This document shows, one piece after another, positions 733-53,138 of a stretch of DNA of 64,000 nucleotides; positions within the stretch are counted from its first letter, which is position 1, and the number at the start of each line of letters is the position of its first letter. The notes below the pieces were generated by a model that was given only the letters and a program-made list of their open reading frames with translations, was not told where the DNA came from and did not search any database. Both the position numbers and the translations under genes were made by a program. This stretch comes from Neobacillus piezotolerans (GTDB lineage: Bacteria; Bacillota; Bacilli; Bacillales; Cytobacillaceae): positions 744,001-808,000 of the forward strand of contig NZ_QNQT01000001.1 in assembly GCF_003362805.1 (NCBI RefSeq), written 5' to 3'.

Positions 733-966
733 ATGAACGAGATTACAGTTTACTCCACCAACACTTGACCGTACTGCACAATGATGAAAAACTTCCTTGA
801 GGCTCAAGGATTGGACTATAACGAAGTGAATGTACAAAACGACCGCGCCGCCGCGGAAAAACTGGTGAACGAAACCGGACAAATGGGCGTGCCGCAAACA
901 AAAGTCAACGGGCACTGGGTGCTTGGATTTGATCCTGAAACATTAATGCAATACGTGAAAGAATAA
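733..966 (+). CDS. Glutaredoxin-family protein with in-frame TGA (putative selenoprotein, UxxC)
   Basis: Reading from ATG 733 gives a 77-residue glutaredoxin: beta strand 'MNEITVYSTNT', then TGA at codon 12 (766-768), then 'PYCTMMKNFLEAQGL', with the glutaredoxin cis-proline motif 'GVPQ' around residue 54 and 'LGFDPE' near the end. The active site would be Sec12-Pro-Tyr-Cys15, where relatives have Cys-Pro-Tyr-Cys. The ribosome site AGGAGG at 719-724 sits 8 nt before ATG 733, so translation clearly starts upstream of the TGA. An internal ATG at 781 would give a protein lacking the active site and has no ribosome site. A hairpin at 794-810 fits a bacterial SECIS, and selC lies in this same window. 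Alternative: a nonsense mutation or sequencing error of a Cys codon. Expected role: cytosolic thiol (or selenol) oxidoreductase. Confidence 0.82.
794..810 (+). promoter_or_regulatory. Putative bacterial SECIS hairpin of the glutaredoxin gene
   Basis: A 7-bp perfect stem, TCCTTGA (794-800) with TCAAGGA (804-810), closes a 3-nt loop GGC (801-803). Thirty-two nucleotides separate the TGA (766-768) from the loop. Known bacterial SECIS elements are short stem-loops inside the coding sequence, with a G in the first two loop positions and the loop roughly 16-37 nt after the UGA. All three criteria are met. Binding by SelB is inference. Confidence 0.65.
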
Positions 967-1864: not shown

Positions 1865-2018
1865 ATGATGAACATCCATTCAATTTCCAAAAACCTTATC
1901 CCTAGAGACTAGTAAAAACCCCTTTATGCATTCCCTCTCGCATACCAAGATAGAGAAATCGCCAAAGTTTTGTTATTATGGGGAAAAGAAAAAGATAATG
2001 GTGAAGGAAGTGTGGCGC

Positions 2019-3278
2019 ATGGAAGTAAAGATGGAAAAAGAAAAAGCTATCCTAGTCGGCTGCCAGACCACCGCAGATGATGACCTGCGTTTTCAATATT
2101 CGATGGAAGAGCTTGTATCTCTTACCGAAACTGCGAAAGGGGAAGTGCTCATTTCAGTTGTCCAAAAGCGCGAGCGGATTCACCCCGCAACCTATATTGG
2201 AAAAGGAAAAGTGGAGGAGCTGAAGGGGCTTGTCGGGCAGCTTGAAGCTGATATTGTCATTTTCAATGATGAGCTTTCTCCAAGCCAGAAGCGGAACCTT
2301 GGCCCGGCACTCGATGCCAGGATAATCGATAGGACTCAGTTGATTCTTGATATCTTCGCCCAGAGGGCCCGTTCTAAAGAAGGGAAGCTGCAGGTTGAGC
2401 TCGCCCAATTGCAATACATACTGCCAAGGCTCGCCGGCCAGGGGACGGAGCTCTCCAGGCTTGGGGGCGGAATCGGCACAAGGGGTCCCGGTGAAACAAA
2501 GCTTGAATCGGACCGGAGGCATATCCGCAGGAGAATCGATGAAATCAAGCAGCAGCTTGCAATCATCGTCCAGCACAGGGATAGGTACCGGGAACGCCGG
2601 AAAAAGAACAAAGCATTCCAAATCGCGATTGCCGGCTATACGAATGCCGGGAAATCTACATTGTTCAACAGGCTGTCGGAAGCGGACTCTTACGAGGAAA
2701 ATCAGCTTTTCGCGACACTGGACCCAATGACGAGGAAAATGATTTTGCCAAGCGGCTTTATTTGCCTGATTACCGATACGGTTGGCTTCATCCAGGATTT
2801 GCCGACCTCCCTGATCGCGGCTTTCCGTTCCACGCTTGAAGAAGTGAGGGAAGCCGATTTGATCCTCCATGTTGTGGATATGTCGAACCCGGATTATTTC
2901 CACCATGAAAAAACTGTCAATAGGCTGCTTGAAGAGCTTGATGTGAAAGACATCCCGCAGCTGACGGTCTACAACAAGCGAGACATCCAGCATCCGGATT
3001 TTGTTCCGACAGCTGATACTCCGACAGCGTTCATATCGGCTTTTGACAAAGAGGACCGCGACGCATTGAAAAAGAAAATCGAAGAAACTGCCATCGCGAT
3101 GATGGAGCCTTATAATGTCCTCGTACCCGCGAATGAAGGAAAGCTGTTATCCATGCTGAAAAATGAAACGGTCCTTAGGGAGCTATCTTTTCAGGAAAAT
3201 GAACAGGTGTATAGTTGCAAAGGCTATACACTTAGGGACCACCAGGTTGCGGGGCAACTGCAAAAATTCACAGTATAG
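2019..3278 (+). CDS. hflX: Ribosome-associated GTPase HflX
   Basis: A 419-residue protein with the HflX N-terminal domain (residues about 1-190, including the glycine-rich '[15 protein letters not shown]'), followed by the GTPase domain: P-loop 'GYTNAGKST' near residue 206, 'DTVGF' near 255, 'NKRD' near 318. HflX binds the 50S subunit and rescues or splits stalled ribosomes. The ATG at 2019 is preferred because AAGGAAG at 2004-2010 precedes it by 8 nt; an upstream in-frame start at 1926 would add residues unlike HflX. Corresponds to B. subtilis ynbA, in the conserved position before ynbB. Confidence 0.93.
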
Positions 3279-28127: not shown

Positions 28128-28224
28128 GGGGCTGAATGGGGTACTGGTGTCCTCCACGGTCTTCAAAACCGCTTGTGACCTGCGTGCCAGGTCAGGTGGG
28201 TTCGATTCCCACACAGTCCCGCCA
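28128..28224 (+). tRNA. selC: Selenocysteine tRNA (tRNA-Sec, anticodon UCA)
   Basis: 97 nt with encoded CCA. Acceptor GGGGCTG(A) pairs with (A)CAGTCCC before discriminator G and CCA; position 8 is an A-A mismatch and one pair is G-T. D arm GGGG...CCTC, anticodon loop CTTCAAA (anticodon TCA) on a CGGT/ACCG stem, a long variable arm TGACCTG/CAGGTCA of 7 bp, and T arm GTGGG-TTCGATT-CCCAC. Anticodon UCA, the long extra arm and the 8+5 layout are those of bacterial tRNA-Sec. It reads UGA when charged with selenocysteine and delivered by SelB. The 3' 64 nt form the attachment site of an integrated island. Confidence 0.96.
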
Positions 28225-28225
28225 A
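28161..28225. repeat. Attachment site attL, 65-bp direct repeat (3' end of selC)
   Basis: Identical for 65 bp to 47718-47782. It starts at the anticodon loop and runs one base past the CCA, the usual place for tyrosine-recombinase crossover in tRNA genes. Confidence 0.93.
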
Positions 28226-28297: not shown

Positions 28298-28341
28298 AGT
28301 GGTGCCCAAAATGGTGCCATTTGTACTTTGGTGCCCAAATT
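28298..28341. repeat. GGTGCC repeats at the left island end
   Basis: Three TGGTGCC copies (28301, 28312 and 28331 region) spaced by 11-19 nt. Related pairs occur at the right end (47587-47612), near 49170 and near 62138. Possible integrase arm-type sites. Confidence 0.5.
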
Positions 28342-28585
28342 ACTCAAGCAACCCATTTAAATGGTCGACTGCAATGCCTTCAATCGAATTTGTCAGGTGA
28401 GAATAGAGATCCATTGTCACATTAATTTTGGAGTGGCCTAAACGGGCACTGACAATCTTCGGGTGGACATTCTCCTTCAGCAAGATCGTTGCGTGTGAAT
28501 GCCTCAAGTCATGACACCGAATGTCTGGAAGGTTTGCTACCTTTAAGCACCTTTTTAGCGCTCTAGTTATTTCAGTTGGAGCCAT
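28340..28585 (-). pseudogene. Tyrosine-type integrase, C-terminal fragment
   Basis: 81 residues covering the catalytic core end: 'CHDLRHSHATILLKENV' (His-x-x-Arg), 'SARLGHSKINVTMDLYSHLT' (His and nucleophile Tyr). The N-terminal SAM-like domain and first catalytic Arg are missing; the sequence upstream is unrelated and leads into the next gene. The remnant points at selC, as phage and ICE integrases do at their attachment site. Internal ATG at the fragment start is probably not used. Confidence 0.85.
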
Positions 28586-30357: not shown

Positions 30358-32307
30358 TTAAGTTCTCTTTTTAATTAAAAATGGACTTTTTTCATAAATT
30401 AAATCATTGTTAATGATAATACTCGAAAGATCCAAGCCAATACTATATTTAGATTTAAATTTTATAAACTCACTCCATCTGAGTGGTCCTTTTTTCAATT
30501 CACTTAGAAGTTCATCCTCAAAGGATTTATTATATGTATGCATTTTAATTTCTTCGAATGAAGTGAAACCATCAGTAACTAAAAACCCATAACCCATTTC
30601 ATTACAAAATGATTCTAATGCTTGGTATTTAATAATGTTTATATTAATTGCCATGTGTATCTTAGGTTTTATTTCAATGATTATCCCACTTCCGTCATCA
30701 AGTACAATAAATATATCCGGTATATATACTCTTTTTCTTTTATGGTAATAGGTTATTTCAAATGGTTGAACCTCATAAAAAACTACTCTAGTACAATTTT
30801 CGATAAGCATCAGAACTTTTCTTTCTAATTCTGATTCGTATTGTATTTCTTTAGATAATTTTTCACTAAAATACTTTCCGCTATTACCAGATAGATCAAA
30901 GTTTACTTCCCTAACTGACTTTACTTCTTGAAAATTAAAATCTTTACATTGAGATTTTTTATTCGGCCATTGAATCTTATTATAAATTCTTTCCTTAAAA
31001 GATTTCAAACTTCTTTCGTACATTCTTTGTAGCTTAAACATTTCATTTTCAGCAAAAATTTGCCTATCTCGATAGTTCTTATACATATCTTGGATATTTG
31101 CACTATTTTCCCGTTCAATAAAAATTATTTCACCTAGAAATTTTAAGAAGAAAGGCGAAGGTGTTTCAAATGCATAATAAAAAAACAAAACAACTCTCTT
31201 CTCCAGTTCTTTAGAACTATTGCTGAAAAGTTTGTTAATGAATTGTTTTAGATAATAATTATCTTCTGTTTCTTTTCTTTGTAAGTAAATTAATAGCTTT
31301 TTTATGGATTTGACTACTATTTGTCTAACACTCTCCCTGGAGATGTTAAATTCATTACCTATTGTCTGAAGAGTTTTAGCACCTTCTCCATAAAAATTGA
31401 GTCTCATAATAAGTATTTTAAAATCCCTGCTATTTAAGCCTAAACCTTCTAAACATTTATATAAAAAATCAATAAAAATATCTCCTAATTGAAGATATTC
31501 TTCCACATACTCATCCGCTAACTCCTCTTGAAGATCATAAAAGGAGCCAATCTCATTATCACTAATATTTGTTACCTTAAAAGAAGCAATTGTAGCTGCT
31601 ATTTCTTCTTCAATCTTATCGTAGTTAATAAATGGTTCTTCTGTTGTTGTAGGGGTAACCTTAATTGATTGTTGCTTTTCTATTTTAAAAATGCTGATAA
31701 CCTTATTAATAGCATAAGAAATCGTTTCAAATATATTTATCTTATAATATGAGAAATTATTAGTAGTCTCTAATTGTTTTTGCTCAGTATAAGTATTAAT
31801 ATTATTTTCTTCTTTTTCGAGGAGTGGCTTCGGTTTCTCAACATTAAATTCACTTTGGGTTAATTTACTATTATTTTGTTCGCTATTAAAATCTTCTTGA
31901 ATTGGAACATTGAATTTAATTAAAGGAGTTCTATTCTCATCCATCAATTTAACAATTTGATGCACAAGTTTTCGATTGTAGTCCTTATCCTCGAACTCAC
32001 AAATTCTCTCAATCTCAATAATTTCTTCGTCTGTTAAATCCATTTTCATTATTGCCTTTAAACAATAATTTCTTACTTGTGGACCATCATGCTTTAAGTT
32101 TTTAATTAGTAACGGTTTTGTTATTTGGCACTCACTTGGATATAAATTATATAATTTGTTCACAGCAGAAGCAGCCAGCCTTCTTTCATTTTTAGTTCCA
32201 GAACCTAGGAAACTAATAAGATACTCTATTGCTTCTACATTTTTTGATTCTCCAAGTTCATAGGGTGACAATTTCGATAAATCCAAACCACTCACCTTAC
32301 CTCGCAT
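30358..32307 (-). CDS. HEAT-repeat / sigma region 4-like HTH / TnsA-like nuclease fusion (649 aa)
   Basis: Three parts. Residues about 15-125 are helical repeats of HEAT type ('LISFLGSGTKNERRLAASAVNKLY', 'KHDGPQVRNYCLKAIMKM'). About 290-345 resemble sigma-70 region 4 ('TLQTIGNEFNISRESVRQIVVKSI'). About 490-600 resemble a TnsA-type restriction-fold nuclease: 'YESELERKVLML', then 'YIPDIFIVLDDGSG' with Asp531 and 'IIIEIKPK' with Glu545/Lys547. A spacer of about 150 residues is low-complexity. Likely DNA-acting; the combination is not one I know by name. Ends on its own terminator. Start at ATG 32307, ribosome site poor. Confidence 0.6.
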   Translation of the reverse strand: MRGKVSGLDLSKLSPYELGESKNVEAIEYLISFLGSGTKNERRLAASAVNKLYNLYPSECQITKPLLIKNLKHDGPQVRNYCLKAIMKMDLTDEEIIEIERICEFEDKDYNRKLVHQIVKLMDENRTPLIKFNVPIQEDFNSEQNNSKLTQSEFNVEKPKPLLEKEENNINTYTEQKQLETTNNFSYYKINIFETISYAINKVISIFKIEKQQSIKVTPTTTEEPFINYDKIEEEIAATIASFKVTNISDNEIGSFYDLQEELADEYVEEYLQLGDIFIDFLYKCLEGLGLNSRDFKILIMRLNFYGEGAKTLQTIGNEFNISRESVRQIVVKSIKKLLIYLQRKETEDNYYLKQFINKLFSNSSKELEKRVVLFFYYAFETPSPFFLKFLGEIIFIERENSANIQDMYKNYRDRQIFAENEMFKLQRMYERSLKSFKERIYNKIQWPNKKSQCKDFNFQEVKSVREVNFDLSGNSGKYFSEKLSKEIQYESELERKVLMLIENCTRVVFYEVQPFEITYYHKRKRVYIPDIFIVLDDGSGIIIEIKPKIHMAININIIKYQALESFCNEMGYGFLVTDGFTSFEEIKMHTYNKSFEDELLSELKKGPLRWSEFIKFKSKYSIGLDLSSIIINNDLIYEKSPFLIKKRT

Positions 32308-32559
32308 GTATACTACAACATTATATTATTCTTTTACAATACCATTTCCTTGATCAAATCTATTGGTAGTTTTATAATACCTCATTTCTATATTGTGGTA
32401 AAATATGTGTGTTACTATTTTATTAGTACGCTTTACTACTACTATTGAAATGTGATTTAGCTGTCTGATGACAATAAGCCAAATCTATAATAATACGACA
32501 TTTCTCTAAAGCAAAATCATGGTAAGAAATGTGAAATTAGTAAACGGTAGGATGTGAAT

Positions 32560-34572
32560 ATGGAAATGATTACAAATTACAAACAAATTAAAGAAGAAGT
32601 TCTTAATATGTACCAGACATTCCTTAGGATAATCGATGAAGTTAATTTTCCTCTGGACAACAAGTCAATGATTGCATTAAAGAACCAAGCTGAAAACATT
32701 CGGAAGGAAAAGTTCCTTTTAATGATTGCTGGAGAAGCAAAGAGCGGGAAATCAACATTTATTAATGCATTTTTAGGACAGGAAATTCTACCAATGGATG
32801 TAAAGCAATGCACAAGTTCTATTGTAGAAATTAAATATGGGGACAACTTCACCCTTATAGCAACTTATGCAAGTGGTAAAACAAAAATGGTGGCTGGAGA
32901 AGAAAAAATAAGAGAGTTTCTTGTGGAAAATGCTGCTCTCAATGATGATTATAGAGAAATTCCTATGACAACCATTAACAATGAGATTCTTATCAAGTAC
33001 AAAGGAAAAATCCCAGAAAGAGTCATTAAAGACATCATAAATGGTGTTCAGCCTGAGAACATATATGGTTTATCGCCAGAAGAATATGAAAAGAGAATTA
33101 GGTCTTATATAACAAAAAATATGAATAATTGGGCAGAAATTGTAACTAAAATGGTCATTACATATCCGTTCAATGATAAAAGTTTACGTGGTATTGAAAT
33201 TATTGACAGTCCAGGAGTTAATGCTAAAGGTCGTGTAGGTGATATCACCAATGACTATATTGAAAATGCAAATGCAATTATGTTTTTAAAGCCTATTACG
33301 GGAGCAGCTTTAGAATCAACATCCTTCATGAGTTTTCTTGATAGCAAAAGTGTGGAACGTAATCGTAATGCATTATTTTTAATATTAACTCGTTCGGCAA
33401 ATGAAAATCCAGAGAATTTGGAACGTTTACAGCAGGAGGCACTGAAATTATACGGAAAGACTGTAAATTCCAGTCATATTATTTCTGTGGATAGTAAGGT
33501 TGAACTTTTTATTAACAAGATATCCAACATGACGGTTGAGGAGATTGAAGCATACTTAGATGAACTGGATAACAGTGGCCGCCTGGATGCTTTTATTACG
33601 CCTCCTCGCTCGATGAGAATATTAAACAAAGAGAAGTACATTGATTTTTTAAAAGCAAAATCCAACTTTCTTGCTGTTGACCATGCAATGAACATATTTG
33701 GACGGAAGACTCATTACTTGGCATTAAGCGAAATGTTGGGACGTATGCTTAAACTCTATCAGCGCATTATGGATGACATTGAAGAACAGATAAAATTGAA
33801 TAAACTTAAAGCAAAAGACCCTACTGAACTAGCCAGGCAGATAGGTGATATAAAAAGAAAGTTAAATGAAATCAATGCAAAAATGGGAAAGACTGTTGAT
33901 GAGATTGTTGTGCGTTACACGGGTGATTCTGGTGTTGTCAGGAAAAAAGCAAAAAGCGCAATAGATGACTTTACTACTTCAGTCGGAGCAATTTCCAACA
34001 ATGATATTAACGAATTGGAGAAGATTTCATTTAGAAAAATTGACGAAGCAAAAAAATTTCAAGAGGAACTGGAAAAAAACATAGTTGCTGAGTGTAATGC
34101 GGCTCTAATTGCTCTCAGCAATGAAAATAAGATAAAATACACCTCCTTAGAGCCTGATTTTACTGCTGAAACATTTGCGGAAATCAAAAAGAAAACAGAA
34201 TCTTCTGCTCAGGTAGAAAAGTCATATACAACTGGAAAAACATTTAAGAAAACGCATTACTACTCAGAGTATTCGAGAACTGAGCATTTTCAGCAAATAA
34301 AGAGCAGTATCCTGACACGCATAAAGTCCATACAAAATGAAGCTATAAACAATCTGATTGACTTCGCCAATCAAACAGCGACAACTTATACTGAAGAATT
34401 GGCAGCAAATGCGAAAGCTAAAAAAGAAGAACTAGATAGAATCATGGAAGAAAAAAAGAATGCAGAGGAAATTCAAGAGACAATTGAGTCGTTGCAAAGG
34501 ATTCTTGAAAAAATAGTACCATTGATAAGGGATGTGAGTGAAAGAAAAGGAGGGATTGATACAAATGTATAA
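32560..34572 (+). CDS. Dynamin-like GTPase
   Basis: 670 residues. G1 'GEAKSGKSTFINAFLG' near residue 58, switch region 'QCTSSIVEIKYG' with the G2 Thr, G3 'DSPGVNAKGRVGD' near 216, then long alpha-helical coiled-coil segments from about 390 ('MDDIEEQIKLNKLKAKDPTEL') to the end, as in bacterial dynamin-like and Lsa/'LeoA-like' proteins. Such proteins remodel membranes and occur in defence. ATG 32560 has GTAGGAT upstream. Its end overlaps the next gene by 8 nt, so the two are translationally coupled. Confidence 0.78.
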   Translation: MEMITNYKQIKEEVLNMYQTFLRIIDEVNFPLDNKSMIALKNQAENIRKEKFLLMIAGEAKSGKSTFINAFLGQEILPMDVKQCTSSIVEIKYGDNFTLIATYASGKTKMVAGEEKIREFLVENAALNDDYREIPMTTINNEILIKYKGKIPERVIKDIINGVQPENIYGLSPEEYEKRIRSYITKNMNNWAEIVTKMVITYPFNDKSLRGIEIIDSPGVNAKGRVGDITNDYIENANAIMFLKPITGAALESTSFMSFLDSKSVERNRNALFLILTRSANENPENLERLQQEALKLYGKTVNSSHIISVDSKVELFINKISNMTVEEIEAYLDELDNSGRLDAFITPPRSMRILNKEKYIDFLKAKSNFLAVDHAMNIFGRKTHYLALSEMLGRMLKLYQRIMDDIEEQIKLNKLKAKDPTELARQIGDIKRKLNEINAKMGKTVDEIVVRYTGDSGVVRKKAKSAIDDFTTSVGAISNNDINELEKISFRKIDEAKKFQEELEKNIVAECNAALIALSNENKIKYTSLEPDFTAETFAEIKKKTESSAQVEKSYTTGKTFKKTHYYSEYSRTEHFQQIKSSILTRIKSIQNEAINNLIDFANQTATTYTEELAANAKAKKEELDRIMEEKKNAEEIQETIESLQRILEKIVPLIRDVSERKGGIDTNV

Positions 34573-35185
34573 TAAGGAAATACTTGTCGGTAAAATAGAG
34601 GATATGTTTAAAGAATTGAGAATCCAGTCCTCCGAGATTATAGCTATTCATTCAGATGCAACCACCGCTTCTAAAATGATTGTTGATGCCGTTTCATCCG
34701 AAACTACTATTCGTAGCAAAACTTTATTAACAGATATGTATGCCTGTCTCTCAGAAAAAACATTGTCTTCTCCTTCTTTTAGTGATGCCGAAAGAAAAAG
34801 TCTATTTTATGGAGCTAATATCAGAGGACAAATATTATCAAAATACCAATTTGATATTACTACTATTAATGCTTTTCAAAACGGTTTAAAATACAAAGAA
34901 TTTGATCAACTATATTCATCCTTAGCAGTAGCGGCTGGAACTGCTGCCATAGGAGGTATATTGAAATATGTGTTGGTTAATGCAATTAATATACCGATAG
35001 TGGTAATTATCGCCGGTGCAGTTACAGCATTTTGTATATCTTTTTTTAAGGGTATACCACTTTTAAACAAAACAGCCTTTCGAAAAGCAATAGATGAGTT
35101 TCTAACTGAAACAAAAAATGAGTTCATTTTATGGTTTGATGAAATTGAAGGATACTATAACAAGTGTATAGACAAGATTGATTAA
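34565..35185 (+). CDS. Membrane protein coupled to the dynamin-like GTPase
   Basis: 206 residues: helical N-terminal half, two adjacent hydrophobic helices at about 115-160 ('LAVAAGTAAIGGILKYVLV', 'IPIVVIIAGAVTAFCISFF'), and a short helical tail. ATG 34565 has AAAGGAGGG about 10 nt upstream and overlaps the GTPase stop. No named family. Best guess: membrane anchor or target for the GTPase. Confidence 0.6.
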   Translation: MYNKEILVGKIEDMFKELRIQSSEIIAIHSDATTASKMIVDAVSSETTIRSKTLLTDMYACLSEKTLSSPSFSDAERKSLFYGANIRGQILSKYQFDITTINAFQNGLKYKEFDQLYSSLAVAAGTAAIGGILKYVLVNAINIPIVVIIAGAVTAFCISFFKGIPLLNKTAFRKAIDEFLTETKNEFILWFDEIEGYYNKCIDKID

Positions 35186-35206
35186 TCGTTATAGAGGAGT
35201 ATAGTT

Positions 35207-38200
35207 ATGGATGATTTAACTCAAACAGATTTTTTCAAAAAAGATACGGACATAATAAGTCATCAAACATATAATCTCTTGACCTCATTATATCCATCTC
35301 ACCTTGTGAATTCTGAAAATCTTTTAGAATTGGTGGAATGTAGTTCGTCCGAGTTGTTGGATGGGTTTACTTATTATCGTATTATGAGTTGCACTATAGA
35401 TAATGTTGAAGACGAATTCGCCTATTTGAATAAAAAAATGGAGAAGCTTTTTACAGCTTTACATTCCATTGATGTCACAATTGCTTATGGAATAATTAGT
35501 TATGATTGTGTCCCAAATTTGGTTATTGGTATAAATCGAAAAAGTAATGCTGATATCCTTAATACAATAATTGGCGGATTATTGTCCGGTGTTGAACTTG
35601 TGAAATTTACTCCTAATTTCATGAAGCATACAATGCATCCTAATCATTTTGGGATATATCCTGCCGTACCAACAACTAAAATAGACGATAAACCTCAGAA
35701 GTTTGATATTGCACCTATGATGAGAAGTCTTAATGGTCAAAACTATACAATGCTTTTTATTGCAAAACCAATGCCCAAAAATGTAATTGCACAAAAGCTG
35801 AATGAATTATTGTCTATACGGGATCAATGCTTTTCTGTTAGTAAAAGAAATATTTCGAGACAAAAAAACACAACAATTACAGCTTCTCATTCTGAGGGGA
35901 AAAGTTGGGGTGTAAGCATCATTTTAGCTAATGGCGGTGGTAATTGGAATGATAGTATTTCAGCTGCAATTTCAGATGGTGAAACTATATCTAGCGATAT
36001 TCAAAATGGCTTTGCACTTGAATTAATGGGCTATGCTGAAAATGGAATCGAAAGGCTTAAGCTTGGGCAGAGTTGCGGGATGTGGCAAACCACAATTACA
36101 TATTCGAGTGATAGTGAAATGGCTAGAAATATTATACAGGCCAGTTTGAATGGTGAAATATCAAAGCCTAATTCGAAATTGCTTCCAGCTAATCCATTCT
36201 CAATAGAACAAAAAAATGGTCAGGCATTGCTTATTCCTAAATATCTCCTTAGCTGTGAAATCAATGAAAATCCTCTTTGTACATTGTTAACTTCTGAGGA
36301 AGTAGGATTAATCTGTACTATGCCTGTTGATAGTGCGCCTAACTTTGAAATAAAACATAATAAGCAATATCCATTAACAGCTATTGGAATTGGTGACAAC
36401 ATTGAGCTTGGTAATATAACTGACAGCGGTAGAGTTATTGAAAATATGCCTTTTGCCTTAAACGAGGAAGACTTAAATAAGCACACATTTATCTGTGGTA
36501 TTACCGGAAGTGGAAAAACAACAACTGTTAAGAAAATTTTAACAAGCTGTAGTAAACCCTTTATGGTAATCGAATCAGCAAAAAAAGAGTATCGAAATAT
36601 CAAGCTTGAAAAAAATGAAACTCCGATAATTTATACTTTAGGGAAGCCAGAGATAAACTGTCTACAAATGAACCCTTTTTACATTATGGCGGGGGTTAGT
36701 GTGCAGACACATATCGATTACTTAAAGGATTTATTCAATGCTGCCTTCTCTTTTTATGGTCCAATGCCATATATCCTCGAAAAATGTTTACAAAACGTGT
36801 ATAAAAACAAGGGCTGGAACTTAACACTTGGATTCCATCCACTTTTAGTTAATAAAGATAACCCTGTAGATTTCTTTGATATAAATGCAATGAAAAGAAA
36901 ATACAAAATTAGTTCACATAAATACCTATTCCCTACAATGTATGATTTGAAATGTGAAATTCAAAGGTATATAGATGAAGAAATGCAGTATGATGGCGAG
37001 GTTGCAGGAAATATTAAAACAGCTATCAAGACAAGGTTAGAGAGCCTTTGTAATGGTGTAAAAGGCTTTATGTTCAATACAAATGAATACGCAGATATGG
37101 AAAAGCTATTAAGTGAAAATGTTGTATTTGAATTAGAGGGATTAGCAGATGACTCAGACAAGGCTTTTTCTGTTGGTCTATTGATAGTGCTTATTAATGA
37201 ATATCGTCAAGTGCATAAAGAAGCTCAAGGAAATAAAAAATCAGGACTTCAGCATTTGCTGGTTGTTGAAGAGGCTCATAGATTATTGAAAAATGTGGAT
37301 ACTGAGCGTGCTTCTGAAAATATGGGTAATCCTAAAGGGAAGGCTGTTGAACATTTTACAAATATGATCGCTGAAATGCGTTCCTACGGTCAGGGGGTTA
37401 TTATTGCGGAGCAGATACCATCAAAACTTGCGCCAGATGTAATAAAAAACTCGTCCAATAAAATTATTCAAAGAGTTGTATCAGCAGATGATCAGGCAAT
37501 AATAGCAAATACAATTGGTATACCTGAAGATGAAGCAATCTACTTAGGTACATTGAAGACGGGTTTTGCCCTTTGTCATAAAGAGGGGATGACACAACCA
37601 GTAAGTGTAAAGATCCACTCAGTTGAAGATATTTTTGTGCCGGATGAAAATTTGTATAATAAAGACTTTCAACAGAGGATGAACTTGGTTAATTCAAATA
37701 TCGTAAAAGATGCTACTACTGATACAATTGAAAGAATGGCCTTCAAACTAATTAATACCTTACTAGTTTGTGACATTGATAGATGTATTTCTTCAATTTA
37801 TTTTTTACAAGAAGAAATAGAAAATGTCTTATGTAAAGAAGGTGTTGATTTAGTATTGTGTCATGATACAAACAAGATTTTAGCAACAGTGATTTCGGAT
37901 ACTGTGAAAATATATCTCATGAGTGGTATATGTAGGGTAGGAAAATTAATTAATGATGATTTAAGTGATTTGATTTTTAATATGCTTAGAACACCCACAT
38001 TAGAGAGAATTAATGAATTTAAGGAGAATGTTAAACAGTTATATGCAAGAGACACAAGAAATATGGGAATTACCATTGTTTCTGAAATGGTAAAATTTCA
38101 ATATGAAAAAGGCATAGATTTTGATGCGTCTATTAGGAATTTCTTCTTAAAGTGCAATAATCAAGATGTGGCAGATGTTATTGATGCCATAAAGAGAGGC

Positions 38201-38212
38201 GGCGAGAGATGA
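35207..38212 (+). CDS. HerA/FtsK-like ATPase (DUF87 type), 1001 aa
   Basis: The first 400 residues are a domain I cannot name. From about 420 comes a HerA-type ATPase: 'FICGITGSGKTTTVKKIL' (Walker A near 431), 'HLLVVEEAHRLLKN' (Walker B near 685), and 'IAEMRSYGQGVIIAEQIPSKL' with the sensor/arginine region. HerA-type hexamers pump DNA or act with nucleases in several defence systems. Lies 21 nt after the membrane protein, and its stop overlaps the next start by 4 nt (ATGA). Confidence 0.78.
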   Translation: MDDLTQTDFFKKDTDIISHQTYNLLTSLYPSHLVNSENLLELVECSSSELLDGFTYYRIMSCTIDNVEDEFAYLNKKMEKLFTALHSIDVTIAYGIISYDCVPNLVIGINRKSNADILNTIIGGLLSGVELVKFTPNFMKHTMHPNHFGIYPAVPTTKIDDKPQKFDIAPMMRSLNGQNYTMLFIAKPMPKNVIAQKLNELLSIRDQCFSVSKRNISRQKNTTITASHSEGKSWGVSIILANGGGNWNDSISAAISDGETISSDIQNGFALELMGYAENGIERLKLGQSCGMWQTTITYSSDSEMARNIIQASLNGEISKPNSKLLPANPFSIEQKNGQALLIPKYLLSCEINENPLCTLLTSEEVGLICTMPVDSAPNFEIKHNKQYPLTAIGIGDNIELGNITDSGRVIENMPFALNEEDLNKHTFICGITGSGKTTTVKKILTSCSKPFMVIESAKKEYRNIKLEKNETPIIYTLGKPEINCLQMNPFYIMAGVSVQTHIDYLKDLFNAAFSFYGPMPYILEKCLQNVYKNKGWNLTLGFHPLLVNKDNPVDFFDINAMKRKYKISSHKYLFPTMYDLKCEIQRYIDEEMQYDGEVAGNIKTAIKTRLESLCNGVKGFMFNTNEYADMEKLLSENVVFELEGLADDSDKAFSVGLLIVLINEYRQVHKEAQGNKKSGLQHLLVVEEAHRLLKNVDTERASENMGNPKGKAVEHFTNMIAEMRSYGQGVIIAEQIPSKLAPDVIKNSSNKIIQRVVSADDQAIIANTIGIPEDEAIYLGTLKTGFALCHKEGMTQPVSVKIHSVEDIFVPDENLYNKDFQQRMNLVNSNIVKDATTDTIERMAFKLINTLLVCDIDRCISSIYFLQEEIENVLCKEGVDLVLCHDTNKILATVISDTVKIYLMSGICRVGKLINDDLSDLIFNMLRTPTLERINEFKENVKQLYARDTRNMGITIVSEMVKFQYEKGIDFDASIRNFFLKCNNQDVADVIDAIKRGGER

Positions 38213-38814
38213 TTGGTGAAATAATTGCAGCAGTTTCTAAAATCGCAGAGGCCGCAGAAACAGTCGAGGTAACTGAGTTTACAAAAACTAAAGAGTATAG
38301 TGAAATTGGAAAGAAAGTTTTAGAACCTAACATTGAAATTGCGAAGTGGAAATCGCTGGAGTCAGTTATACAAACAAACATTGAAAAAGGAATCGAACGA
38401 ATTCCAACACGAAAACAAGATCTTGAGGGTAAGAACCACCCAGATACAGGAGTTCCTTACGTTGTAAAAGTCGTGGAAAATAGTAAAGGCGAATTGGTAG
38501 AGGTTGTTGTACCTGAATTTGATAGTATCTTTGATTTGCACTTGCCAGAGGAATTATATGAAGCTACTGACAATAAGCAGTTTTCAGAATGTAATCGTCA
38601 ATTAAAAGAAGCAGTACAAAACGATCCAGAATTGGCTGCGAAATTTACAGAAGAGCAACTAGAACAAATTATGAATGGTGATACACCTGATGGGTATACT
38701 TGGCATCATGATGCTGAAAAGGGAAAAATGCAATTGGTTGACTCTAAAATACATGCACAAACAGGACACACCGGAGGCAGAGCCATATGGGGCGGCGGAA
38801 GCGGAAATAGGTAA
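38209..38814 (+). CDS. WHH-type HNH nuclease toxin
   Basis: 201 residues. The C-terminus 'DGYTWHHDAEKGKMQLVDSKIHAQTGHTGGRAIWGGG' carries the W-H-H motif of the WHH group of HNH/Endo VII nucleases, found at the tips of polymorphic toxins. The N-terminal 'GEIIAAVSKIAEAAETVEVTEF' is a short helix instead of a secretion domain, so it is probably intracellular or delivered by its operon partners. Overlaps the HerA stop by 4 nt. Followed by a SUKH-type gene that should be its antidote. Confidence 0.78.
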   Translation: MIGEIIAAVSKIAEAAETVEVTEFTKTKEYSEIGKKVLEPNIEIAKWKSLESVIQTNIEKGIERIPTRKQDLEGKNHPDTGVPYVVKVVENSKGELVEVVVPEFDSIFDLHLPEELYEATDNKQFSECNRQLKEAVQNDPELAAKFTEEQLEQIMNGDTPDGYTWHHDAEKGKMQLVDSKIHAQTGHTGGRAIWGGGSGNR

Positions 38815-47717: not shown

Positions 47718-47782
47718 CTTCAAAACCGCTTGTGACCTGCGTGCCAGGTCAGGTGGGTTCGATTCCCACACAGTCCCGCCAA
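47718..47782 (+). repeat. Second att copy: partial selC duplicate (65 bp)
   Basis: Identical to 28161-28225: anticodon loop to CCA of tRNA-Sec, without the 5' third and promoter, so not a functional tRNA. After it the sequence continues to resemble the left end (terminator 47826-47852, degenerate integrase), meaning a second related element starts here. Confidence 0.93.
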
Positions 47783-49391: not shown

Positions 49392-52300
49392 TTGTATTCT
49401 GATCAACATCATATTGAAAAGATTAGAGAGAGTCTAATTAAAGGTAATGCCTCAGTAATGGTAGGAGCAGGCTTTAGTTTAAATGCAACACATCTTTCAA
49501 AATCAAAAGGCTCTTTCTTAACTTGGTCACAGCTTATTGATAAAATGAAATGTAAACTTTATTTTGATGAAGAGGCTAGAAAATATGCCCCTACAGATCC
49601 ATTGAAATTGGCAGCTGAGTTTGAATTTGAATTTGGCAGAGAAGCATTGGATAAATTCCTTAAAGAGTCTTTACCAGATAATAATTATACTCCTGCACAA
49701 TTACATAAAATGTTATTATCTTTACCTTGGGTTGATATATTTACAACAAATTATGATACCTTAATTGAGAAAACTAGAGAATTTATTTATGACAGAAACT
49801 ATAGCCTTGTACAGACCGTAAGTGATATACCCAATTCGATTAGGCCAAGGATTGTTAAACTGCACGGTAGTTTTCCATCACATAGACCATTTATATTCAC
49901 TGAAGAAGATTATAGGACCTATCCTAATAAATTTTCGCCTTTTATAAACCTTGTTCAGCAAAGCATAATGGAAAATACATTATGCCTTATTGGTTTTTCT
50001 GGTGATGATCCAAATTTTAAAAATTGGATCGGATGGGTTAGAGATAATCTAGGTGATTATGCATCGTCAATATATTTTTGTGGATTCTTAACAGAGTCTC
50101 AGAAAAGAAGTCTAGAAAGTATAAAAATTAGAGTCATTGATTTTGGTAAATTATTTACAGATGAAAAACGAACAAATAATTATAAAAATGCTTTACAATG
50201 GTTCTTTTTAGAATTAATGAAGCCAGAATTTAGAACACCATATTATTGGCCCGAACCAAATAGAAATAATCCTCTTTCTAGTTGGTCAATTTCACAAGAA
50301 GTTAAAGAGAAACTTAGTTTTAATGAAGATAAGCCAACAAAATATAATTCATTTGATTATTATGACTGGCAGAAGGGTCTTTTCTCAACGGAAAGTATTA
50401 TTAATATAGCTAAAATTTGGGAAGAGGATAGAAGTTATTATCCACAATGGGTAGTTGCCCCGCGAAAAGCAAGAAACTTTATTTGGAACGATTTTCATTT
50501 TGACTTAATTCAGTCAATTGTTAACTCTAAAACGACTTTTTCTTTCAAACAATTTCTATTTATTTTACATGAAATATTATGGAGATTAGAGGTTGCTCTC
50601 TTATCCCTTTCAAATCCTAGATTTAACTTACTTTTACCAGTAATTGAAGAAATTGTCGATAAATTTGGGAATTGTATAGGAGATTATGAAAAAATAAAAA
50701 AACTCTATAAAGTGGAAAATAAAGATATCGATGTAATTGAACAACAATGTATAAGACTTTGTTTTAGTTTAGTGAACTACTACAGAGAACAATTAAATAA
50801 TGAAAGAGTATATGAATTATTAGAATTATATGAGCCTCTAATAAACAAAGATGAAGAGCTTCAAGCAGAAAGTTATTATAACCAGTGTCTCATTGAACTA
50901 AATAATTTTAATTACCCGAAAGTCTTTGAAATCCTAAATAATTGGACTGTTAATTACAACATTCCATATTGGCAAGTTAGACGAGCGTCCATCTTAATTG
51001 CGCTTAGAGAAATAAGCGAGGCTGAGAATATATTAATAACCTCATTAAATGAAATCAGAAGAAGGAATGTAGAGGGTAATGATATTGAATTGTTATCTCA
51101 AGAAAGCTGGATATTAAGAATTTTAAACGCTTTAAAAAAGGAAAGAACGTATAAAAATATATACAATAACATAGAGAAGGAGAATTATTTAAAAACAATA
51201 CACTGTGATGCCAATCAGATATATGAAGAGATTGTAACAGCAATAGATGGTTCATTGATTAAGCAACCAAAACAGCTTAATAAATCGTTTGATCCGGGGA
51301 CTGAAATTATTTCTTTTTCTTTTAATAATCAATATGAAGTGGATAATAAAAATGCATTACAATTAATAAGAATGATGGAAAATACCGGACATAGATTTAA
51401 AATTAATAACACAATTTTTGATAAAGAAAGGGTTATCATTGCTTGCGAATTTATACTGCCAACAAATTTTATGCTTGCTCTTATAACAGCTATACAATTG
51501 GAAAATAAGGATTTTATTAAATCTTTATTATCAAGAGAAATTATAGCTACTTTGGAGGAGGATACAGTTTGTGGACTTTTTACAAAAATATATAATTCGC
51601 TTATTTATTTAAATAATCTAAGAATAAATCACCAATTAAATTTATTCGAGGATAAGAGATTTTCAATATTACTTGAAATTCTTTCGCGTTTAACGATAAA
51701 ACTAAGCAGAGAAAAATTAGATGACTGTTTGAGTTTGGGCATAGATATTTTTATGTCAGTCTCTAACCATTCTAATGATAGTCATTTATTTGATACCGAA
51801 CTTAATAATTTATTTAAGAGAACGATATACGCTTTGGATGATGAAGATATCTTAAATAGACTAAAAGATTTGTTAAACTTACCTGTAGCCGCAAATAGTC
51901 ATATAATTGATCCATTCTATTATTTAGATAGAAAGGAATTTAAAAAGAACCAACATTATAAGGAAACTATTAGTTCTCTTGGAATAATCATAGAAACAAA
52001 TGTTTATAGATTGATTGAAGACCTAAAGATGACCAAAGATATTAACACGGAAACTTTATTAAGGTTAATCACATTAGATAATCTAAGTACAATGAGTAAT
52101 ACACAAAAAGTGCAAATAGGAAATTTATTATTAGGTAAAAATAATATAGATAATACTGTCTTTTATTTTAAAAGCCTAATTTCTCACTTTTTTCAAGCAG
52201 ACAGTAAATTTAAAGAATCAATAGAAGCTGGGATAAAAAGTTTATTGGAAAGAAAATTTGTTGATGTATTTGGTGAAGAAAATGGGTATAGATTTTCATA

Positions 52301-53138
52301 TTCATCTAGTCGTGTAAATCTCATTGAACGACATTTAATTGAGTTATCTCAGTTATTGCTAGGCAATTCAGAATGTATTAATTTTACGTACTTTAGAAAT
52401 CAATTTTTATCGTTGATTGACGGTTTAGAAGTATGGTGGACTTTAAATAGGGATAAATTAAAGTCCGATTCAAACAATCAGTTTTTTATTTATTTTAAAA
52501 GGTTTTTATATAAGCTTCTTTATGTGTCCTCTTCTGATAAGCAAATAATAGAAAGAATTAGAATAATGTTAAATGATCTAGAAACACGAGGTTTTTATAC
52601 AGTAAGCTTATTGCCCTTAATTTCCAAAAGAGAGGAAATTGCTAACACTGAGTTAACTATTATTTATTTTCTACACTCTAATAATAAAGATCAAGTATTT
52701 GATGCGTTAGAGGCAATAAAGAATTGGATAGACCTTTATAAAGATGAGTTAATAGATACTATGCCTGAAAAAGCACTCGATGAATTAATTCAAAAAGTAT
52801 TTTTAAGAAGGCTGCCGTATTTAGAACAATCAATCAAGCTATTGATTGAGATTATAAATCTACACTTTTATTCTCTCTCTTCGACACAATTTGAGAAAGT
52901 GATAGAAGCATTAAAGAATATATATGATGAAACGGAAATTAAAGCTCCTTCAGATGAACATTTTGTGACATGGAGAAAAGAAGAGTTTTTATCCTTACGA
53001 GCTGCCGCTACAAAATTAGCTCACGACCTATATGTTAACTTAGTAAGAAATAACCAATCAATTCCCGAGATCCTGAGGGTATACCAAGAAGAGAGTGAGA
53101 ATAACATAATTCCTGACTTACGGAAACAATGGAATTGA
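49392..53138 (+). CDS. SIR2-domain defence protein (1248 aa)
   Basis: N-terminal SIR2 domain, about 1-270: 'VMVGAGFSLNA' (NAD-binding G-A-G-x-S), 'DIFTTNYDTLIE' near 115 with the catalytic Asn, 'RIVKLHGSF' near 155 with the catalytic His, 'CLIGFSGDDPNF' near 205. The remaining 980 residues are long helical repeats with no enzyme motif, as in the DSR/Thoeris-effector-like SIR2 proteins that drain NAD+ after sensing phage. The length resembles DSR1. TTG start with GGAGG 9 nt upstream. Monocistronic between two GAGTGC-type terminators. Confidence 0.85.
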   Translation: MYSDQHHIEKIRESLIKGNASVMVGAGFSLNATHLSKSKGSFLTWSQLIDKMKCKLYFDEEARKYAPTDPLKLAAEFEFEFGREALDKFLKESLPDNNYTPAQLHKMLLSLPWVDIFTTNYDTLIEKTREFIYDRNYSLVQTVSDIPNSIRPRIVKLHGSFPSHRPFIFTEEDYRTYPNKFSPFINLVQQSIMENTLCLIGFSGDDPNFKNWIGWVRDNLGDYASSIYFCGFLTESQKRSLESIKIRVIDFGKLFTDEKRTNNYKNALQWFFLELMKPEFRTPYYWPEPNRNNPLSSWSISQEVKEKLSFNEDKPTKYNSFDYYDWQKGLFSTESIINIAKIWEEDRSYYPQWVVAPRKARNFIWNDFHFDLIQSIVNSKTTFSFKQFLFILHEILWRLEVALLSLSNPRFNLLLPVIEEIVDKFGNCIGDYEKIKKLYKVENKDIDVIEQQCIRLCFSLVNYYREQLNNERVYELLELYEPLINKDEELQAESYYNQCLIELNNFNYPKVFEILNNWTVNYNIPYWQVRRASILIALREISEAENILITSLNEIRRRNVEGNDIELLSQESWILRILNALKKERTYKNIYNNIEKENYLKTIHCDANQIYEEIVTAIDGSLIKQPKQLNKSFDPGTEIISFSFNNQYEVDNKNALQLIRMMENTGHRFKINNTIFDKERVIIACEFILPTNFMLALITAIQLENKDFIKSLLSREIIATLEEDTVCGLFTKIYNSLIYLNNLRINHQLNLFEDKRFSILLEILSRLTIKLSREKLDDCLSLGIDIFMSVSNHSNDSHLFDTELNNLFKRTIYALDDEDILNRLKDLLNLPVAANSHIIDPFYYLDRKEFKKNQHYKETISSLGIIIETNVYRLIEDLKMTKDINTETLLRLITLDNLSTMSNTQKVQIGNLLLGKNNIDNTVFYFKSLISHFFQADSKFKESIEAGIKSLLERKFVDVFGEENGYRFSYSSSRVNLIERHLIELSQLLLGNSECINFTYFRNQFLSLIDGLEVWWTLNRDKLKSDSNNQFFIYFKRFLYKLLYVSSSDKQIIERIRIMLNDLETRGFYTVSLLPLISKREEIANTELTIIYFLHSNNKDQVFDALEAIKNWIDLYKDELIDTMPEKALDELIQKVFLRRLPYLEQSIKLLIEIINLHFYSLSSTQFEKVIEALKNIYDETEIKAPSDEHFVTWRKEEFLSLRAAATKLAHDLYVNLVRNNQSIPEILRVYQEESENNIIPDLRKQWN

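Follow-up and report, generated by a model that had tools for sequence, protein, structure and literature searches.

A predicted selenocysteine glutaredoxin with a conserved bSECIS hairpin in Neobacillus and related Bacillales

Introduction

Glutaredoxins that contain selenocysteine (Sec) are already known as a kind. A UxxC glutaredoxin is tabulated among the known selenoproteins, above the 'Predicted' part of the table (PMC13188914, PMC9312934), and cGrx1 of Clostridium oremlandii is described as a native selenoprotein that carries its catalytic Sec in a U/CPxC motif and is proposed to serve a Sec-containing MsrA (PMC7642778). The Sec-glutaredoxins reported from Geobacter, Alkaliphilus and the Sargasso Sea also combine UxxC with a downstream bSECIS element; their sources are deltaproteobacterial, clostridial and marine, whereas the gene described here belongs to the Bacillales (PMC1088965, PMC1794560, PMC13188914). 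The published bSECIS criteria are a loop of 3–9 nt, a stem of 4–16 bp, a G in the first two loop positions, a distance of 16–37 nt from the UGA and a minimum free energy of −7.5 kcal/mol or lower (PMC13188914). In 2006 the Bacillales were credited with three selenoprotein families and three selenoproteins (PMC1794560). Within the accessible parts of PMC13188914, PMC1088965, PMC1794560, PMC9312934, PMC5029168 and PMC7642778, supplements aside, no Bacillaceae Sec-glutaredoxin is mentioned, and a prior mention elsewhere is possible; the words bacillus, bacilli, firmicutes and bacillota do not occur in the accessible part of PMC13188914.

The gene at issue lies in a 64,000-nucleotide stretch of DNA from Neobacillus piezotolerans (the window), and it is a new branch of this known family. 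The best PDB sequence match for its product is cGrx1 (5.8e-13), which has the same fold; we tied cGrx1 to PDB entry 7c10 through the entry title 'Dithiol cGrx1', and to 7c12 and 7c13 by the name cGrx1. The two proteins are ~35% identical, whereas the nearest Cys relatives of the window protein within its own order reach 83% identity. These identity levels suggest that Sec was gained separately in cGrx1 and in the window gene. Compared with the YruB (TIGR02196) and NrdH (TIGR02194) glutaredoxins, the window protein has Sec in place of the first Cys. The UXX-star proteins (NF041212, NF041114, NF041211 and NF047338), judged by their names, are likewise small, glutaredoxin-like and Sec-first; as their name also indicates, they are without a second active-site Cys, which the window protein retains (UPYC).

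Results and discussion

The gene and its product

The candidate gene spans positions 733–966 on the + strand and would encode a YruB/NrdH-like glutaredoxin of 77 amino acids with a UPYC active site. The original prediction had placed a TGA where a CPYC glutaredoxin has its first catalytic Cys, in a frame that is otherwise intact, preceded by a ribosome-binding site and followed by a terminator, and this description is borne out by the frame and by its homologues. Translation yields MNEITVYSTNT-U-PYC...KE, with a single TGA at codon 12 (766–768, + strand; predicted Sec12) and an open frame up to the TAA at 964–966. The ribosome-binding site AGGAGG (719–724, + strand), read from the sequence, stands 8 nt 5′ of the ATG. 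At the end of the gene, an inverted repeat that resembles an intrinsic terminator and leads into a run of Ts (965–984, + strand) comes after the stop. The promoter-like sequence TTGACA-18-CATAAT (665–694, + strand) matches at 11 of 12 positions and is weak, with one found against 0.9 expected in shuffled sequence. An in-frame ATG at 781 lies 3′ of the active-site codons.

For profile searches and structure modeling, Cys was substituted for Sec12. The protein matches the glutaredoxin family PF00462 (7.6e-18, 64.9 bits against a gathering score of 22.9). Its best NCBIfam model is YruB (TIGR02196), at 87.2 bits just below the curated cut-off of 88.55. Scores for NrdH-redoxin (TIGR02194, 50.8 bits; cut-off 85.75) and for the glutathione-dependent glutaredoxin 3 (TIGR02181, 57.2 bits; curated cut-off 90) fall short as well. 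The same holds for all of the UXX-star families (NF041212, 45.7 against 66; NF041114, 23.0 against 72; NF041211, 28.6 against 100; NF047338, 33.7 against 97), from which the protein is also set apart by the presence of Cys15.

The AlphaFold2 model (mean pLDDT 92.4, pTM 0.79) has the order strand-helix-strand-helix-strand-strand-helix, with residue 12 situated immediately before helix 13–24. The top Foldseek match is cGrx2 (4tr0), further matches are glutaredoxins and an NrdH-redoxin, and comparison with dithiol cGrx1 (7c10_B) gives TM scores of 0.86/0.91 and an rmsd of 1.1. Among 25 members chosen for alignment, residues 12–15 (with C for U), Val53-Pro54, Trp62 and Gly65 do not vary. Pro54 would correspond to the cis-proline that faces the active-site residue in glutaredoxins, and the W-x-L-G-F-D-P stretch resembles NrdH.

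A conserved hairpin downstream of the TGA

The segments TCCTTGA and TCAAGGA (794–810, + strand) can form a 7-bp stem closed by the loop GGC (801–803), with the stem beginning 25 nt and the loop 32 nt after the UGA. In all respects this hairpin lies within the published bSECIS criteria (loop 3 nt, stem 7 bp, G at loop position 1, 32 nt, −7.6 kcal/mol), with an energy only just under the limit of −7.5. As stand-alone evidence the hairpin of this single gene was rejected: when the protein is recoded at random with synonymous codons, 1375 of 20000 sequences (~7%) have a 7-bp stem under the same rules and 259 of 3000 are equally stable over 787–817, and the fold z-scores are weak (−0.89 over 60 nt and −2.06 over 31 nt for the window gene; −0.41 for another Sec gene, L030). 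Nor does the stem offer compensatory covariation that could be used, its columns being nearly invariant in the 25 Sec loci aligned of the 72.

The comparison with relatives is more telling. Held in a fixed register, all seven pairs and a G-first loop are present in 43 of 43 distinct Sec genes (loops GGG in 21, GGC in 17, GTC in 4 and GGA in 1), compared with seven pairs in 2 of 88 Cys genes and the stem plus a G-first loop in just one; this test drew on the 131 distinct genes, L046 excepted. Since the Sec rows share ancestry, the 43 are not independent, and the control is accordingly the remainder of each gene within these rows. Synonymous difference was counted as different codons among comparisons of sequences that share the residue at that codon, in 42 Sec and 51 Cys distinct genes that are full-length and at least 62% identical. 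At codons 21–26 it amounts to 0.9% in Sec genes, against 43.8% in the rest of the gene; the corresponding values in Cys genes are 58.6% and 56.6%. Leu22, for example, is CTT in 42 of 42 Sec genes and is spread over CTG, TTA, CTT and others in Cys genes. Codons 13–20 are also quieter in Sec genes (19.5% versus 53.8%). Because synonymous change at codons 21–26 has almost ceased in Sec genes and is unrestrained in Cys genes, the hairpin appears to be under a constraint additional to that on the protein. On these sequence comparisons, its conservation among relatives far exceeds chance, even though a single such hairpin could be chance. The original prediction had cited the 7-bp hairpin with loop GGC 32 nt downstream as support in itself; its position stands, and its evidential weight passes to the relatives.

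Selenocysteine machinery and other TGA-containing genes

The window also contains selC, as originally pointed out: the tRNA-Sec gene with anticodon TCA is at 28128–28220 on the + strand (Rfam RF01852, 65.2 bits; also called by ARAGORN). The search of the genome for selA, selB and selD that had been proposed as a check found all three, with profile matches of 560.6, 362.2 and 396.3 bits, respectively, each above its curated cut-off. Two of the genome's genes carry one in-frame TGA at a Sec motif: selD, which reads GUGCK, and the gene for the formate dehydrogenase alpha subunit, with the motif UHAP, UHxP being a motif of formate dehydrogenase as well. In the published table, selenophosphate synthetase has the motif UxxK, and dehydrogenase subunits (TIGR01553, formylmethanofuran dehydrogenase) have UHxP (PMC13188914). 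Another match to formate dehydrogenase, split into several pieces (G000:C12:210354-213158), also holds one TGA and is a possible further selenoprotein of this genome.

Distribution and the state of codon 12

Some glutaredoxin match at 0.001 was found in 54 genomes of a first set of 61. All 8 genomes searched in the genus, the source genome included, carry the gene with one TGA. At the family level, 91 of 193 genomes have a match at 1e-18 or better and 40 have a match with one TGA; the family's selA count is 172 of 193 and includes all 40 TGA carriers, which is a moderate test only, selA being so common there. A draw of 397 genomes from the order gave matches at 1e-24 in 92, with one TGA in 13 of these; ten of the 13 belong to the family, and the three outside it (G039, G314 and G564) all have selA. 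Random stops elsewhere in the gene of close relatives had been named as evidence that would speak against Sec, and no second stop occurs in any of the 40 matches with TGA from the family.

The expectation that homologues would have C or U at position 12 was likewise confirmed. Across 152 loci drawn from the two collections, in which some organisms occur twice, codon 12 reads TGA in 72, TGT in 56 and TGC in 23, leaving one misplaced partial match; the site thus shows only TGA, TGT or TGC in 151 of 152 loci. The same TGA is present in separate assemblies of other species, among them Bacillus sp. FJAT-27245, FJAT-27445, FJAT-27225 and EB01, Neobacillus mesonae, N. kokaensis and N. terrae, and Mesobacillus subterraneus and M. 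selenatarsenatis SF-1.

In four Sec loci the reading frame appears to be broken at another point of the gene. The pairs L143/L180 and L078/L156 are probably two organisms seen in two collections, and their breaks reflect either decay or assembly error. Separately, two distant Cys-type homologues, L041 (genome G016) and L106 (genome G063), have an in-frame TAA; at the position of the TAA in L041, the related L042 has CAA for Gln. Both may be pseudogenes.

Alternative readings and proposed mechanism

We put the probability that the TGA at codon 12 is read as Sec, and that 733–966 is a selenoprotein glutaredoxin, at about 0.96, and the selenocysteine interpretation of the original prediction is supported on sequence grounds. 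One objection is that a Cys-glutaredoxin gene is decaying here and has acquired a nonsense mutation, or that the TGA arose by sequencing error. Events of this sort do occur in the wider family, as seen in the apparent frame breaks of L143/L180 and L078/L156 and the TAA-containing Cys-type genes of G016 and G063. They would nevertheless have to account for an identical TGA across separate assemblies of many species, for the lack of a second stop in any of the 40 family matches, and for a gene in which the remaining protein is conserved and the hairpin is under extra constraint, and we regard decay or error as exceedingly improbable.

Translation might instead restart at ATG 781 (or 784) to give a short product that lacks the first catalytic residue, and Met17 and Met18, in frame after the TGA, are each kept in 42 of 42 Sec genes. 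Met17, however, is equally invariant in 51 of 51 Cys homologues, in which the frame is open upstream; AGGAGG precedes ATG 733, and codons 1–11 are mostly conserved as protein in both the Sec and the Cys sets, codon 3 least. Such a restart is thus very unlikely. The identity of residue 12 is itself read from sequence, which leaves room for the UGA being decoded as another residue, for example Trp or Cys by a near-cognate tRNA, with the hairpin acting as a read-through or regulatory element rather than as a SECIS. Against this, the catalytic Cys site swaps only with Cys codons in the aligned loci, the genome encodes all of the Sec machinery and has TGA at Sec motifs in two more genes, and the hairpin fits the bSECIS model; decoding as a residue other than Sec is almost certainly not what happens here.

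If the codon is read as Sec, SelB carrying Sec-tRNA-Sec would bind the hairpin and insert Sec at the UGA, as in the E. coli mechanism, and translation would continue to the TAA at 964. By the chemistry of glutaredoxins, the Sec12 selenolate would attack a disulfide (or a sulfenic acid or persulfide), and the resulting selenenylsulfide would be resolved by Cys15. Bacillithiol serves as a low-molecular-weight thiol in Bacillaceae. The likeliest electron donor would be thioredoxin reductase or a small thiol that is not glutathione.

Genomic locus and Sec/Cys turnover

The window gene is flanked upstream by the 3′ part of spoVK (14–565, + strand; TIGR02881, profile positions 85–261 of 261), which starts before the window and is followed by a terminator-like site at 569–584, and downstream by hflX (1926–3278, + strand; TIGR03156, 479.7 bits). 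In fetched flanks, hflX follows the Sec gene in every one of the 8 genomes of the genus, and spoVK precedes it in 7 of them; the contig of the remaining genome, G004, extends only 270 nt upstream. A genome of another genus (G196) has the same spoVK-Sec gene-hflX order. Among Cys loci, 23 have spoVK nearby, and in the genus g4 it is close to 9 of the 10 Cys paralogues that were fetched and to no fetched Sec copy. Neither neighbor is found at 57 Sec and 57 Cys loci, many of them with only 500-nt flanks. This pattern of neighbors at both Sec and Cys loci argues that the ancestral gene was probably a Cys form located between spoVK and hflX. Where Sec copies lie away from spoVK, 9 of the 36 loci examined share a signal peptidase I-like neighbor, as judged by eye.

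In a first protein tree of 109 rows (L046, sequences under 50% identity, duplicates and those with fewer than 60 residues before a stop left out), 39 Sec rows and the Cys rows L079, L061 and L026 form one well-supported group inside the Cys-glutaredoxins (100/94). In a second protein tree the Sec group has lower support (91/72) and also contains L171. The free protein trees place three (L079, L061 and L026) or four (with L171) Cys rows within the Sec group or at its base, and the state changes needed number 3 in the first protein tree and 4 or 6 in later trees. The later trees comprised 105 rows (without L046, L169 and rows under 60%) and, for the second protein tree and the topology test, 88 rows (without rows under 67% and L143, L180, L078 and L156). 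A single clean Sec clade is not rejected (p-AU 0.087 for protein, 0.21 for DNA), so that reversion to Cys is unproven by the trees alone. The DNA trees also draw long-branched Cys rows into the Sec group (both trees: L146 and L192; first tree: L152), and for this reason they were given no weight.

The four Cys rows differ in what they retain. L061 has TGT at codon 12, the stem and a GGC loop, in a selA-positive genome; L171 has TGT and the stem with a TTC loop, and no match to selA was found in its genome; in L026 codon 12 is TGT as well and the hairpin is broken, and its genome has selA, as does that of L079. Remnant bSECIS elements in Cys forms have been described for other selenoproteins (PMC1794560). 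Most likely, a Bacillaceae Cys-glutaredoxin changed to the Sec form once, perhaps at the spoVK-hflX place; the Sec gene would later have spread to other genera, and some lineages would have gone back to Cys. For the full series, comprising a single gain between spoVK and hflX, moves to new places and to other families of the order, at times beside a Cys paralogue, and several reversions, we consider the odds slightly better than even. As part of that series, L061 (intact bSECIS), L171 (loop G lost) and L026 (decayed hairpin) would represent living stages of reversion.

These data would add a whole branch of predicted selenoproteins to the Bacillus-group spore-formers (Bacillus, Neobacillus and Mesobacillus), one in which a standard gene caller would probably truncate the active site. 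Close Sec and Cys versions coexist, at times in one genome, and some of the Cys versions carry relic signals; the gain and loss of Sec can therefore be tested in near-identical proteins and hosts. The family looks like a record of selenium use gained, and perhaps lost, in evolution. Defining the bSECIS by frozen synonymous codons rather than by fold energy provides a yardstick for other candidates.

A plasmid or phage origin of the gene was considered and not adopted. Matches on mobile elements, counted with any codon at the Sec site, comprise one distant plasmid match by DNA, 5 plasmid records found with the protein (E 1e-15) and 45 phage records, each of these phage matches less than 60% identical. 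On a plasmid of Mesobacillus foraminis (L197, 1026–5766), a distant glutaredoxin gene sits among genes for TusA, DsrE, rhodanese, a metallo-hydrolase and TauE, apparently a sulfur-transfer operon. These neighbors hint at persulfide handling for this plasmid paralogue.

Other features of the window

The 3′ part of selC, 65 nt from the anticodon loop onward (28161–28225), is repeated exactly at 47718–47782, ~19.5 kb downstream. Related stretches follow both copies, and the first holds a C-terminal phage-integrase fragment (28340–28585, − strand). The arrangement resembles an attachment site, and one or two islands have probably been inserted at the tRNA-Sec gene with selC left intact. Between the repeats are genes for a protein with TnsA-like and sigma-70 region 4 matches (30358–32307), a dynamin-like GTPase (32554–34572), a HerA-like ATPase (35207–38212) and a protein with a colicin-DNase/WHH nuclease domain (38209–38814), and this cargo (30358–38814) is possibly a defence cluster. 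Just past the second repeat lies a gene for a SIR2 protein of 1248 residues (49392–53138; PADLOC Dsr2, 641 bits).

Between the glutaredoxin gene and hflX, positions 1085–1859 are occupied by a 52-bp tandem unit in 14.9 copies with 91% matches. The consensus unit contains GTGACATT and AATGTCAC, which are able to pair, and the distance between the glutaredoxin gene and hflX differs among relatives.
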